Assembly (NCBI GenBank): GCA_005883305.1
Contig: VBAC01000001.1
Location: forward strand, 2,418,001 to 2,482,000
Length of the DNA: 64,000 nucleotides
Source of the DNA: Alphaproteobacteria bacterium
Lineage (GTDB): Bacteria; Pseudomonadota; Alphaproteobacteria; Sphingomonadales; Sphingomonadaceae
Reading direction: 5' to 3'
This document shows positions 34,188-46,247 of the stretch, piece after piece. Position numbers and translations under genes: made by a program. The notes under the pieces were generated by a model. The model saw only the letters and a program-made list of their open reading frames with translations. It was not told the DNA's origin and did no database searches. The first letter of the stretch is position 1; each line of letters begins with the position of its first letter.

Positions 34188-34604
34188 CTAGGCTGAGAAT
34201 CGCTCCTTGAGCGCGAGCATCGCCAGCGCCGCTTTCGCCGCCTCCCCGCCTTTGTCCTTGTCGGCGCGGTGCGCCCGGGCCAGCGCCTGGGCCTCGTTCT
34301 CGACGGTCAGGATTCCGTTACCGATGGCGAGGCCGTCGAGAGTCAGCGCCATCAAAGCCCGCGCGCTTTCCCCGGCGACGATCTCGAAATGATAGGTCTC
34401 GCCGCGGATCACGGCGCCCAAAGCGACATAGGCGTCATAGTCCGATCCCTCGGCGGCCAGAGCGATCGCTCCGGGCACCTCGAGCGCTCCGGGGACGGTG
34501 ACCACGTCGACTTGGTGGCCCGCGAGCGCCGCCTTCGCGCCATCGAGCAACAGGTCGTTCAGATGGGCGTAGAAGCGCGCCTCGACGATCAGGATACGGG
34601 CCAT
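34188..34604 (-). CDS. ribH: 6,7-dimethyl-8-ribityllumazine synthase
   Basis: 138 residues. The enzyme condenses 5-amino-6-ribitylaminouracil with 3,4-dihydroxy-2-butanone 4-phosphate. Family motifs are [51 protein letters not shown], and GNGILTVEN. It starts 3 bp after the ribBX stop and is the last gene of the riboflavin operon. Confidence 0.95.
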
Positions 34605-34607
34605 GGT

Positions 34608-35894
34608 CTAGCGCTCCATCGCGATCGGCCGCTCGCCGACGATGGCGAGGCCGTAGCCGCCCAGCGCCACCGGCGTATGGTGGCTGTTGGTCAACAGGAT
34701 CATGTCGTGCACGCCGAGCTCGGCGAGGATCTGCGCGCCGACGCCATAGTCGCGAAGCTCGGCATATTCGGCCGGGCCGGCGGCCCCCGCGCGCACTCTC
34801 AGCGCGTCGGTCATCGCGCCTGGCATCGGCCGGTTGATGACCACGATCACTCCGGCGCCTTCCTCGGCGATCGCCTTCATCGCCCCTTCGAGCAGTCCGC
34901 CGCGCGCGCCCTCCTCGGCGAAGGCGTCGGACAGGATCGACAGCGCGTGCATCCGAACGAGGGTCGGCTTGCCCGGATCGACATGCCCCTTCACCAGCGC
35001 GATCTGCTCGACCCCCGAAGCCTTGTTGAGGAAGGTCCGCGCGGTCCACGTCCCGCCCCAGCGGCTTTCGAAGCGCGCCTCGGCGGTCTGCTCGACGATC
35101 CGGTCCTTGCGCAGGCGGTAGGCGATCAGGTCGCGAATCGTTCCGATCCTCAGGCCATGGAGCCGGGCGAAGGCGAAGAGGCCGTCCATCCGCTCCATCG
35201 ATCCGTCGTCGGACATGATCTCGCAGATCACGCCCGACGGATTGAGCCCCGCCAGCCGCGCCACGTCCACCGCCGCCTCGGTATGGCCGGCGCGCACAAG
35301 CACGCCGCCGTCGCGCGCGACCAGGGGAAAGACATGGCCCGGCGAGACGATATGCTCGGGGCCCTTCGCCGCGTCGACCGCGACCGAAATGGTCCGCGCC
35401 CGGTCGGCGGCGGAGATCCCGGTGGTGACTCCTTCGCGCGCCTCGATCGAGGTGGTGAAGGCGGTGCCGAGCCTCGTCCCGTTGGTCCGGCTCATCGGCT
35501 CCAGCGCCAGCTGCCCGGCGCGCTCGCGGGTCAGCGCGAGGCAGATCAGGCCGCGGCCGTGCTTGGCCATGAAGTTGATCGCGTCCGGAGTCGCCATCTG
35601 CGCGGGGACGACCAGGTCGCCCTCATTCTCGCGGTCCTCGTCGTCGACCAGGATGAACATCCGCCCGTTGCGCGCCTCGTCGATGATCTGTTCGGCGCTG
35701 GCCATCACCCCGCTCGATCCGCTGGCGAGGAATTTCTCGAGCTTCAGCAGGGTGTCGGCGGTCGGATTCCAGTCCTCGTCGCCGAGCTTGCGAAGGGAGT
35801 TGGGATGAAGCCCGGCGGCGCGCGCCAGCCCGGCCCTGCTCATCTCGCCCTCGGCGACGAGCTCGCACAGGCGATCGATCAACAGGGTGCTCAT
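34608..35894 (-). CDS. ribB: 3,4-dihydroxy-2-butanone-4-phosphate synthase with N-terminal HTH and degenerate RibA-like domain (HTH-RibBX)
   Basis: 428 residues in three parts. Residues 5-55 form an XRE-like helix-turn-helix (SRAGLARAAGLHPNSLRKLG, then NPTADTLLKLEKFLAS). Residues ~63-265 are RibB (FILVDDEDRENEGDLVVPA, NGTRLGTAFTTSIEAREGVTTG, GHTEAAVDVARLAG), which makes the four-carbon precursor of riboflavin. The remaining ~160 residues resemble GTP cyclohydrolase II but lack its zinc cysteines: the CLTG...RCDCG region reads HALSILSDAFAEEGARGG. This is the RibBX type known in Proteobacteria, so RibA activity must come from elsewhere. An HTH fused in front is unusual. A palindrome lies 11-29 bp upstream of the ATG. 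It sits between ribE and ribH. Confidence 0.93.
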   Translation of the reverse strand: MSTLLIDRLCELVAEGEMSRAGLARAAGLHPNSLRKLGDEDWNPTADTLLKLEKFLASGSSGVMASAEQIIDEARNGRMFILVDDEDRENEGDLVVPAQMATPDAINFMAKHGRGLICLALTRERAGQLALEPMSRTNGTRLGTAFTTSIEAREGVTTGISAADRARTISVAVDAAKGPEHIVSPGHVFPLVARDGGVLVRAGHTEAAVDVARLAGLNPSGVICEIMSDDGSMERMDGLFAFARLHGLRIGTIRDLIAYRLRKDRIVEQTAEARFESRWGGTWTARTFLNKASGVEQIALVKGHVDPGKPTLVRMHALSILSDAFAEEGARGGLLEGAMKAIAEEGAGVIVVINRPMPGAMTDALRVRAGAAGPAEYAELRDYGVGAQILAELGVHDMILLTNSHHTPVALGGYGLAIVGERPIAMER

Positions 35895-35905
35895 GCCATT
35901 CGCCT

Positions 35906-35923
35906 ATCACACTGCAATGTGAT
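35906..35923. promoter_or_regulatory. Palindrome between ribE and ribBX, candidate HTH-RibBX operator
   Basis: ATCACA (35906-35911) and TGTGAT (35918-35923) form a perfect inverted repeat with a 6-base spacer, and a third ATCACA half-site lies at 35937-35942. The 48-bp gap between ribE and ribBX holds nothing else, and is far too short for an FMN riboswitch. Confidence 0.5.
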
Positions 35924-35942
35924 CAGCCAATATGAAATCACA

Positions 35943-36551
35943 TTATGCGTTGCGCGCTTCCATCATCCTGCCGAGATAGCGGGCGAGAATGTCGATCTCG
36001 ATATTGATCTGCCGGCCCACGCCGACGCTGCCGAAGCTGGTCTGCTGCGCCGTGTGCGGGATGATGTTCACGCCGAACGCGACGCTGCCGTCGCGCCGCG
36101 TGCTGACCTCGTTGACCGTCAGCGACACCCCGTCGAGCGCGATCGACCCCTTGGCCGCGATGTAGGGGGCGAGCGATGCGGGGGCGGCGATCGCGATCTG
36201 CAGCGAATCGCCCGATGGATCGGCCGATGTCACCTCGCCGACGGCGTCGACATGGCCGGTGACGATATGGCCGCCAAGCTCGTCGCCGACCTTCAGCGCG
36301 CGCTCGAGGTTGAGCCTTGTGCCCTCGGCCCACATGCCGGAGGCGGTGCGGCTCCGGGTCTCGGCCGAAACGTCGACCGCGAACCAGCCCTCTCCCTTGC
36401 CGACCACCGTCAGGCAGACGCCCGAGCAGGCGATCGACGCGCCGAGATCGATGGCGCTCGTGTCGTAGCCGCAGGCGATCCTGACGCTCAGGTCCCCGCG
36501 CGCCTCGACCGCCTCGATCCGGCCGACGTCGGTGACGATCCCGGTGAACAT
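35943..36551 (-). CDS. ribE: Riboflavin synthase, alpha chain
   Basis: 202 residues with two lumazine-binding barrels. The first starts MFTGIVTDVGRIEAVE and has ACSGVCLTV; the second has GHIVTGHVDAVG and ALDGVSLTVNEV. It dismutates two lumazine molecules to riboflavin. The C-terminus NIEIDILARYLGRMME is typical. It lies between ribD (separated by an R1 repeat) and ribBX. Confidence 0.95.
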   Translation of the reverse strand: MFTGIVTDVGRIEAVEARGDLSVRIACGYDTSAIDLGASIACSGVCLTVVGKGEGWFAVDVSAETRSRTASGMWAEGTRLNLERALKVGDELGGHIVTGHVDAVGEVTSADPSGDSLQIAIAAPASLAPYIAAKGSIALDGVSLTVNEVSTRRDGSVAFGVNIIPHTAQQTSFGSVGVGRQINIEIDILARYLGRMMEARNA

Positions 36552-36571: not shown

Positions 36572-36721
36572 CCGCTCATCCTGAGGAGCCGTTGAGCTTG
36601 TCGAAACGGCGTCTCGAAGGACGCACAGTGATGGTCCTTCGATACGGGCCTTCGCGGGCCCCATGAAAGTAATACTTTCATGGGAACCCTCCCAGGCTCA
36701 GTCCCTACTCAGGATGAGCGG
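36572..36721. repeat. R1 palindromic element, copy 4, with nested palindrome
   Basis: R1 ends CCGCTCATCCTGAGGAG / CTACTCAGGATGAGCGG enclose an extra near-central palindrome CCCATGAAAGTA-A-TACTTTCATGGG (12-1-12, perfect). The same nested palindrome occurs in copy 5 at 51689-51866. The right end overlaps the last codons and stop of ribD. Confidence 0.85.
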
Positions 36722-37700
36722 GCTTGGCATGCTTTTCCCTGAGCCGCTCGTAGACTTCGAGCCGGTCGCTGCCAAGCTGGCGCGAATCGGTCATCCGCCA
36801 GCGCTCGTGAGCGTCGGCGATCGCCTCCAGGCCGAGATAGCCGACCGACGATTTGCCCTCGCCGATCAGGATCGGCGCGCGGTAGACCAGCAGGCGGTCG
36901 ACCAGATCGGCGGCGAGGAAGGCGGTCGCGGTCGCCGATCCGCCCTCGACCAGCAGGTCGTTGACGTCGCTCAGGCCGTAAATCTCCTCCGGCGCGCCGA
37001 TCCGGCTCCAGCCCTCCACGGCGTCGCCGCGCGTGAGCAGGGCGCGGCGCGGCGAGCGATCCTCCAGCCCCGGCAGCCGAACGTCGAGCTTCGGCGCGTC
37101 CGCCTCGTAGGTGCCGCGCCCGACCAGGATCATGTCGCTGCGCGCCCGTTCGAGGTGGACGTGCGCCCGAGCGTCCTCGCCGGTGATCCACTTGCTCTCG
37201 CCCGAGGGCAGAGCGATCCTGCCGTCGATCGACATGGCGAGCTTCAGGGTCACGTAGGGGCGGCCGAGGCGCAGTCGCGTCAGGAAGCCGGCCATCGATC
37301 GCCCGGCCTCCTCCGCGCCCGGGCCGGTCTCGACCGCGATGCCCGCCTCCCGAAGCCGGGCGATCCCGGCACCGTTCGTTCGGGGATCGGGGTCGCCCAG
37401 CGCGATCACCACCCGCGCCGGCGCGGCCGCGGCCAGCAGCTCCGAGCATGCCGGCCCGCGTTCGCTGCGGTGGGCGCAGGGCTCGAGCGTGATATAGACG
37501 GTTGCGCCTTCGGCCGAGTCCCCCGCCTGTTCCAGCGCCATCGCCTCGGCGTGGGGGCGGCCGCCGGGCTGGGTCCAGCCGCGCCCGATCACCACCTCGT
37601 CCTTGACGATCACGCAGCCGACATTGGGATTGGGCGCCGTCCGTCCGCGCCCGCGGTCGCCTAGCGCGACCGCCGCTTCCATCCAGCGCTCGTCGCTCAA
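36705..37700 (-). CDS. ribD: Bifunctional diaminohydroxyphosphoribosylaminopyrimidine deaminase / 5-amino-6-(5-phosphoribosylamino)uracil reductase
   Basis: 331 residues. The N-terminal deaminase has the zinc motifs PGGRPHAEAMAL and PCAHRSERGPAC. The C-terminal reductase has RPYVTLKLAMSIDGRIA and LLVEGGSATATAFL. It carries out the second and third steps of the riboflavin pathway. The start is TTG at 37700, overlapping the stop of the small membrane protein gene as TTGA. The last six codons and the TAG stop (KPAHPE*) are read from the end of an R1 repeat, so the element has replaced the native C-terminus. It is first of the rib genes in the operon ribD-ribE-ribBX-ribH. Confidence 0.95.
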   Translation of the reverse strand: MSDERWMEAAVALGDRGRGRTAPNPNVGCVIVKDEVVIGRGWTQPGGRPHAEAMALEQAGDSAEGATVYITLEPCAHRSERGPACSELLAAAAPARVVIALGDPDPRTNGAGIARLREAGIAVETGPGAEEAGRSMAGFLTRLRLGRPYVTLKLAMSIDGRIALPSGESKWITGEDARAHVHLERARSDMILVGRGTYEADAPKLDVRLPGLEDRSPRRALLTRGDAVEGWSRIGAPEEIYGLSDVNDLLVEGGSATATAFLAADLVDRLLVYRAPILIGEGKSSVGYLGLEAIADAHERWRMTDSRQLGSDRLEVYERLREKHAKPAHPE

Positions 37701-45937: not shown

Positions 45938-45987
45938 CTGTAGAGGCCGTCTTCGCACTTGCACAAAACCTGCGCAAGCGCAAAAAA

Positions 45988-46055
45988 GACCCTGCCTTTC
46001 AGGCATCCTCTCCTAAAAACTTTCCAGGGTCGGCCACCGCGCCGGCCCTTTTTTT
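45988..46055 (+). ncRNA. Candidate small RNA or structured 3' end (plus strand)
   Basis: GACCC (45988) pairs with GGGTC (46027-46031) around an inner perfect hairpin TGCCT-ttc-AGGCA (45993-46005) and a single-stranded TCCTCTCC (46006-46013). A terminator with a T7 tail follows at 46027-46055. The CU-rich loop resembles anti-Shine-Dalgarno loops of alphaproteobacterial small RNAs. No protein gene on this strand explains the terminator. No promoter was identified. Confidence 0.35.
46027..46055 (+). terminator. Rho-independent terminator without an associated protein gene
   Basis: Stem GGGTCGGC / GCCGGCCC (one G-U pair), loop CACCGC, then seven T residues. The left arm GGGTC can instead pair with GACCC at 45988, so two mutually exclusive folds exist. 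Confidence 0.7.
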
Positions 46056-46247
46056 AGCCGAGGTCCGCCGAGCCTAAAGCGCCGCCGCGCAGCGGCGCCG
46101 CCCTTGGGCGAAGAGCCGGACCCGGCCGGCCAGCCTGCGCCCACGGGCGACAGGACTGACGTCACGGCACAATGGTGCCGTGACGGCCCTTCGGTGACCA
46201 GCCGGCTGTCGCGCCTACGCCTTCCCTCGGGCCGGCGGCCGCAAGGT
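46056..46247. other. Intergenic region with a perfect 10-bp hairpin
   Basis: No gene is apparent. GTCACGGCAC-aatg-GTGCCGTGAC (46161-46184) is a perfect hairpin, nested in a wider pairing GCGACAG (46147-46153) / CTGTCGC (46206-46212). It may be part of a structured RNA or the relic of a mobile palindrome. Confidence 0.45.

Follow-up and report, generated by a model that had tools for sequence, protein, structure and literature searches.

A predicted phage-type helix-turn-helix domain fused to RibBX and a conserved palindrome in its own promoter in sphingomonads

We analyzed a stretch of 64,000 nucleotides (the window) from an alphaproteobacterium of the Sphingomonadaceae (contig VBAC01000001.1 of assembly GCA_005883305.1), in which the gene for the riboflavin enzyme RibB encodes a RibBX-type protein preceded by an N-terminal helix-turn-helix (HTH) domain, and in which a palindrome, ATCACA-N6-TGTGAT, lies between this gene and its upstream neighbour ribE. 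From comparison with related genomes and phages we propose, with a probability of about 0.82, that the HTH-RibBX protein represses its own leaderless promoter by means of an HTH of phage-repressor type that would act on this palindrome, the putative operator O1. A sequence-only reading of the window had described an XRE-like HTH followed by RibB and by a RibA-like domain without its zinc cysteines (RibBX type), a composition borne out by Pfam, below the gathering threshold in the case of the HTH, and by alignment. Its suggestion that the palindrome is where the protein acts on its own promoter gains strong support from the comparison, in which the site is tightly linked to the fused HTH, is nearly private to its gene, occupies the putative promoter with a geometry shared with phage regulators, and recurs at a prophage relative of the HTH.

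Occurrence of the palindrome with the fused HTH domain

The 48 bp between the ribE stop codon and the ribBX ATG contain TGTGAT-N13-ATCACA-N6-TGTGAT, that is, the perfect 6-6-6 palindrome and the third half-site that had been noticed from the sequence. The palindrome, judged in the window alone, is only mildly unusual: it is the single match with at most two mismatches across the 64 kb, and shuffles of the window gave a mean of 0.44 such matches, with at least one match in 38 of 100. A chance palindrome was rejected because its conservation in relatives raises it above chance. The four relatives from the same genus keep it, three exactly and one with a single change; the case that the sequence-only reading had named as refuting it, loss of the palindrome in close relatives with the same HTH, was thus looked for and did not arise.

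For the wider comparison 102 fusion loci were gathered: the 30 best relatives, three from a class-wide search, 60 that were fetched (59 of them chosen because the genome had no exact site) and nine chosen for having one. All 99 loci that could be parsed, 56 of them picked for no exact site in the genome and nine for an exact one, match O1 at 9 or more of its 12 positions in the 130 bp upstream: the site is exact in 28 and differs at one position in 37, at two in 24 and at three in 10. The other three loci match it at 11, 10 and 11 positions. Shuffled upstream sequences reach at least 9 positions in 5% of cases, at least 10 in 0.4% and 11 in 0.04%. At a second set of loci, from named genomes and not selected for the site, 80 of 80 match at 10 or more positions (38 exact, 35 one off, 7 two off); the two sets overlap (e.g. 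L206 and G137, L219 and G125, and L267 and G237 are the same genomes) and are not independent. The question raised by the sequence-only reading, whether the palindrome is conserved upstream of other HTH-RibB genes, is thereby answered in the affirmative for each of the 102 loci from the family and the 80 from named genomes.

RibB loci without the HTH give a different picture. The best match in 29 of them (28 from 27 family genomes and one from outside the family) is 6 to 8 of 12, even in a wider window of 200 bp; this comparison covers 27 of the 43 family genomes read as HTH-less. At a further HTH-less locus, L178, a 10 of 12 match occurs some 300 bp upstream, within the coding sequence of ribE, and we take it as chance. 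Among 114 loci placed on a tree of the RibBX core, matches of at least 10 of 12 occur in 58 of 60 with the HTH versus 1 of 54 without it (L178). This tree is poorly resolved and has long branches (L070 and L092 were dropped); the state of the HTH requires nine changes on it, at least five of them forced on supported branches, and gain with losses cannot be distinguished on it from transfers. On average the motif goes with the HTH in 4.4 of the supported tree pairs and in the opposite direction in 0.0. The same contrast is seen within genera: G161 (HTH, 11 of 12) versus the HTH-less G005 and G099, G155 (HTH, exact site) versus G091, and G008 and G102 (HTH, exact site) versus G164. This tight association suggests that the site goes with the HTH rather than with RibB.

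The site also appears mostly private to the HTH-RibBX gene. The exact pattern is present in 91 of 249 family genomes, usually once, and the reversed pattern in 1 of 249. Among the matches listed, 60 of 75 exact sites lie within 130 bp upstream of the HTH-RibBX gene of the same genome, 8 lie elsewhere and 7 are unplaced; among the 43 HTH-less genomes only G017 has an exact site. A wider regulon was considered and not retained: the source genome holds a single exact site and one site with one mismatch, at 1054536, which was inspected for reading frames only and is tied to no gene.

Domains, promoter layout and phage relatives

Pfam matches the protein with DHBP_synthase at residues 68-259 (E 7.7e-81) and with GTP_cyclohydro2 at residues 269-422 (E 1.7e-31). 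The three zinc cysteines of RibA are absent from the second of these domains, the X domain: HSECLTGDALGSLRCDCG of a true RibBA, from G164, aligns with HALSILSDAFAE-EGARGG. The protein thus combines the two marks of RibBX, a whole RibB domain with the active-site motif of dihydroxybutanone phosphate synthase and a cysteine-less RibA-like C-terminal domain. The HTH carries the conserved motifs GLH.N.LR and WNPT; HTH_3 and HTH_26 each match 6 of 14 members of its family at E <= 0.01, and one phage relative passes the HTH_3 gathering threshold (25.5 vs a cut-off of 23). An AlphaFold2 model of the HTH alone has a predicted local distance difference test (pLDDT) score of 87, and its 20 nearest chains in Foldseek are mostly lambda-repressor-like (C-proteins, HipB, P22 c2; probability 0.84-0.99, E 0.18-0.69), with the MuB N-terminal domain in row 15 and LacI-type chains in lower rows; DSSP does not call the recognition helix in this model. 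The full-length model was poor (mean pLDDT 65.9) and was not used. A sequence search of the PDB yielded chains of RibB and RibBA (the best being 6mnz) and, for the HTH domain, no significant relative.

A profile of the HTH matches 199 of the 249 genomes of the family searched, which seems to be a broadly drawn Sphingomonadaceae; G017 and G010 are not fusions, and about 197 genomes have the fusion; the matches listed lie in open frames of at least 336 amino acids. When 337 genomes of the class were searched, the whole HTH was covered, among the matches listed, only within the family, and elsewhere matches start at or near the RibB part; outside the family there are partial matches without the HTH (L068, L070 and L312 of G342) and one, L313 of G318, in which no frame could be read. 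The best 80 of 558 relatives from named genomes carry Sphingomonadales labels almost throughout (Sphingorhabdus, Qipengyuania, Erythrobacter, Novosphingobium, Sphingopyxis, Sphingobium and other genera), alongside one 'Pseudomonadota bacterium' and one 'Alphaproteobacteria bacterium'. An HTH-RibBX gene is also found on a plasmid of Novosphingobium sp. ES2-1 (L197, 5001-6275), where it is surrounded by genes of redox and catabolic functions; its site, at -59, matches at 11 of 12 positions, and TGTGA stands at -17. Plasmid matches in Azospirillum (L198) and Ketogulonicigenium (L199) have no such site.

The layout of the promoter was compared across 179 loci (the overlapping sets of 99 and 80). 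O1 starts 28-32 bp before the ATG in 114 of them, and exactly 29 bp before it in 73. In 123 of 179 loci, versus 2% in shuffles, a TGTGAT half-site with at least 5 of 6 letters is present 30-34 bp upstream of the TGTGAT arm of O1. A TTG is present about six bases before O1 in 95 of the 114 loci, a count made without a shuffle control, so that O1 would fill the spacer of the promoter. Where O1 lies at -24 to -33, only 8 of 122 starts are preceded by a sequence resembling a Shine-Dalgarno element; the figure is 17 of 33 where O1 lies at -34 to -55, 14 of 24 at the remaining loci, in which O1 is mostly more distant, and 16 of 29 at starts without the HTH. On a plain reading of these counts the transcript would be leaderless, beginning at the ATG, which would account for the fixed distance between O1 and the start codon. 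The C-terminus of RibE is encoded within 290 bp upstream in only 34 of 165 loci (by a crude regular expression), which makes the site an unlikely remnant of the border with ribE. As in an autorepressor, a conserved palindrome, the predicted operator, is found in the gene's own promoter region.

Outside RibBX, parallels to this arrangement come from phages. In G017, whose own RibB is HTH-less, a prophage-like stretch encodes a stand-alone HTH of 68 amino acids that is 51% identical to ours over query residues 10-66; the adjacent, divergent gene matches HTH and S24 peptidase profiles. The start of the stand-alone HTH gene is preceded by two palindromes of the same pattern, 31 bp apart and with one mismatch each. 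Two further palindromes, one of them exact, lie 2.8 kb from the HTH gene, also 31 bp apart (L189, 872-920), and are perhaps the far operator of a lysogeny switch. The same protein is encoded in the viral contig L192. In Pseudanabaena phage Pan3 (L196) a related HTH with the recognition helix RIHRNTLNGC has half-sites AGCATA/TATGCT at -30, and its gene stands beside a divergent repressor gene (PHROG match, E 3e-17). Other relatives pair GIHHNTLLGC with AGCATA (L309, the same as L295), GLHRNTLYGC with GGCATA/TATGCT at -33 (L296), INITTLRNF with AATGCA (L306), and xDT[TV]LR with half-sites that have CGCA on at least one arm (L305 and L307). A 6-6-6 palindrome with at least 5 of 6 pairs lies at -28 to -32 in five of seven phage members, three times perfectly, against a null expectation of 3.4% (0.14% for six pairs), and several phage relatives have a second palindrome or half-site at the position of the upstream half-site (O2). 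The operator geometry thus seems common to most phage members, and the half-site seems to follow the recognition helix. Residues of the helix and letters of the half-site co-vary across L306, L305, L309, L310, L196 and L296, from which a recognition code for this HTH family could possibly be derived. The Cro-like protein of Pan3 is 67% identical to that of L295/L309 and resembles sphingomonad prophage proteins although the phage is named for a cyanobacterial host, so its stated host is worth checking.

Proposed mechanism and alternative explanations

In the mechanism that we infer, the HTH, a relative of small phage regulators, would bind ATCACATTNNAATGTGAT (O1), which would fill the spacer of the leaderless promoter, from its -35 to its -10 element, and its binding would shut RNA polymerase out of ribBX and of ribH, which is probably co-transcribed. 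The second site about 31 bp upstream would probably strengthen binding. RibB enzymes are homodimers, and the RibB dimer would present two HTHs to the single palindrome; the X domain would be the best candidate sensor of any modulating ligand. As to its origin, we suggest tentatively, and somewhat short of an even chance, that a phage Cro-like gene with its promoter and operators was captured before ribBX in a sphingomonad ancestor, so that a lysogeny switch became a one-protein, one-operator homeostat for vitamin B2, with the X domain as its sensor of a flavin or of some metabolite of the pathway, and replaced the FMN (flavin mononucleotide) riboswitch.

Several observations weigh against autorepression through O1. 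Residues 1-61 alone match HTH_26 (E 9.4e-4) and HTH_3 (E 4.8e-3), both below gathering, and the HTH_26 match weakens to E 0.025 when the whole protein is searched; the Foldseek E-values are weak as well, none being <= 0.001. The tree-corrected test, with five supported pairs, gives a median p of 0.125, short of significance. Ten of the 99 fusion loci have only a 9 of 12 match, the level met by 5% of shuffles, in 56 of 179 loci no upstream half-site stands at the usual distance, and the exact site is missing in 158 of 249 genomes, so that many fusions (in about half of the fusion genomes) have a degenerate copy only. When one mismatch is allowed in G017, the reversed control pattern has two sites against five for the true one. 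The choice of the seven phage members was made with their upstream sequences already in view, and two of the seven reach no more than 4 of 6 pairs; the later finds L317 and L319 both fall short of five pairs at -28 to -32 (in L319 a perfect palindrome stands at -76), and no clear site is seen in L193/L311.

The palindrome could instead be the site of a separate regulator, for instance of the CRP/FNR type, that the HTH of RibBX does not bind. Palindromes near -30 are bound by many regulators, and the half-site resembles that of CRP; CRP/FNR half-sites, TGTGA/TCACA, are similar but oppositely oriented. We regard this explanation as quite improbable, given that the site accompanies the HTH in 102 of 102 loci and reaches at most 8 of 12 in the 29 HTH-less loci, that it is mostly private to one gene, unlike the site of a global regulator, and that a relative of the HTH encoded on its own in a prophage has the site as well. 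It is also unlikely, though less so, that the fusion binds O1 and activates the promoter, or does both depending on the state of a ligand: MerR-type activators bind in the promoter spacer, where O1 probably lies, but palindromes over the core of a promoter are the usual design of repressors, and the HTH has its relatives among Cro/CI-like phage regulators, two of which neighbour a gene that matches a repressor profile. That the element acts as RNA, as a riboswitch or attenuator, is very nearly negligible. Palindromes can form hairpins, but Rfam has no match at the promoter, the fold of 35880-35960 is no better than that of shuffles (z +0.69), and the predicted transcript begins past the palindrome; an RNA element was therefore rejected.

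A closer question is whether repression, if it occurs, responds to a metabolite. Negative autoregulation requires no ligand, and pure product feedback, in which the protein represses according to its own concentration, has nearly an even chance. Against it, the X domain has been kept despite the loss of its cyclohydrolase cysteines; the X domain of Shewanella RibBX regulates RibB activity, according to the available part of PMC10012899, so it may bind something; and FMN riboswitches are nearly absent from the family, which leaves the control by flavin without an assigned device.

Genomic context and relation to known systems

The features discussed are collected in Table 1. The source genome (3.03 Mb in three contigs) has a second, weak RibA-like match at another place. 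The lack of an FMN riboswitch at ribBX, proposed by the sequence-only reading, agrees with the absence of any RF00050 match in the window; the sole Rfam match there is to the suhB/mmgR small RNA family, at 45987-46063 on the plus strand (42.1 bits, just over gathering).

Table 1. Coordinates of the rib genes, protein domains and predicted promoter elements in the window
Feature	Position	Strand	Basis
HTH-ribBX gene, 428 amino acids	34608..35894	-	Open reading frame call and Pfam matches
N-terminal Cro/CI-like HTH, residues 1-61	35712..35894	-	Pfam below gathering, conserved motifs, AlphaFold2/Foldseek
RibB domain (DHBP synthase), residues 66-260, DDEDRENEGDL kept	35115..35699	-	Pfam and alignment
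X domain (resembles GTP cyclohydrolase II; three zinc cysteines absent)	34623..35093	-	Pfam and alignment
O1, palindrome ATCACA-N6-TGTGAT, predicted operator, 29 bp 5' of ATG	35906..35923	.	Pattern search and conservation
O2, half-site TGTGAT, 31 bp (about 3 helical turns) above the TGTGAT arm of O1	35937..35942	.	
Predicted -35 element, TTGGCT	35925..35930	-	TTG frequency in relatives; -35 assignment inferred
Predicted -10 element, GATAGG, overlapping O1	35903..35908	-	Inferred
ribE, riboflavin synthase, upstream neighbour	35943..36551	-	
ribH, lumazine synthase, downstream neighbour	34188..34604	-	
ribD	36705..37700	-	First of the minus-strand rib run (ribD, ribE, HTH-ribBX, ribH)

Under stricter filters, one of the 249 family genomes, G164, gave a match to the FMN riboswitch (RF00050). 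There (L190) it precedes ribD, ribE, a gene for a RibBA with zinc cysteines and no HTH, and ribH, and this operon looks foreign; the congeners G008 and G102 have HTH-RibBX and the exact site instead, which looks like one control replaced by another. With the riboswitch nearly absent from sphingomonads, an enzyme acting as its own repressor would be a concrete answer to how vitamin B2 is controlled in these bacteria. It would probably also exemplify how a regulator domain of phage type, apparently along with the layout of its operators, can be recruited to govern core metabolism, and the recognition code could be read from the way helix and half-site vary in nature. No description of an HTH-RibB fusion was found in the literature searched, including the available parts of PMC4418817 (where RibX is a transporter), PMC12542839 and PMC5882156; most subscription papers were outside this search, which is no proof of absence.

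RibBX itself is a known variant, and the available part of PMC10012899 states that its X domain has no cyclohydrolase activity and regulates RibB by a mechanism not yet understood; our reading may give this domain a role. The RibBX proteins of Shewanella, Aeromonas and Bradyrhizobium share the RibB domain, the cysteine-less X domain and the order ribD-ribE-ribBX-ribH, but no N-terminal HTH is mentioned for them in that part of the source, whereas the protein described here has a Cro/CI-like HTH of about 60 residues and a predicted operator in its promoter. The Cro/CI-like phage regulators (Pan3, IMG/VR contigs and sphingomonad prophages) have a homologous HTH, with about 30-55% identity, and share the palindrome at -30, in five of seven, and, in several cases, the second site about 31 bp upstream; they differ in being stand-alone proteins of about 60-140 amino acids in which no enzyme domain was seen, mostly with other half-sites. 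Among trigger enzymes, the group II biotin protein ligase BirA is a different enzyme with an HTH of another type, and here the sole clear target would be the enzyme's own gene. RbkR, the archaeal riboflavin regulator, is a riboflavin kinase fused to an HTH, with an operator, and differs from HTH-RibBX in its enzyme and in the domain of life to which it belongs; it is described as bifunctional in the available part of PMC10746257. The FMN riboswitch, finally, is the usual control device of riboflavin genes, but it is an RNA, whereas here the control would be exerted by a protein.
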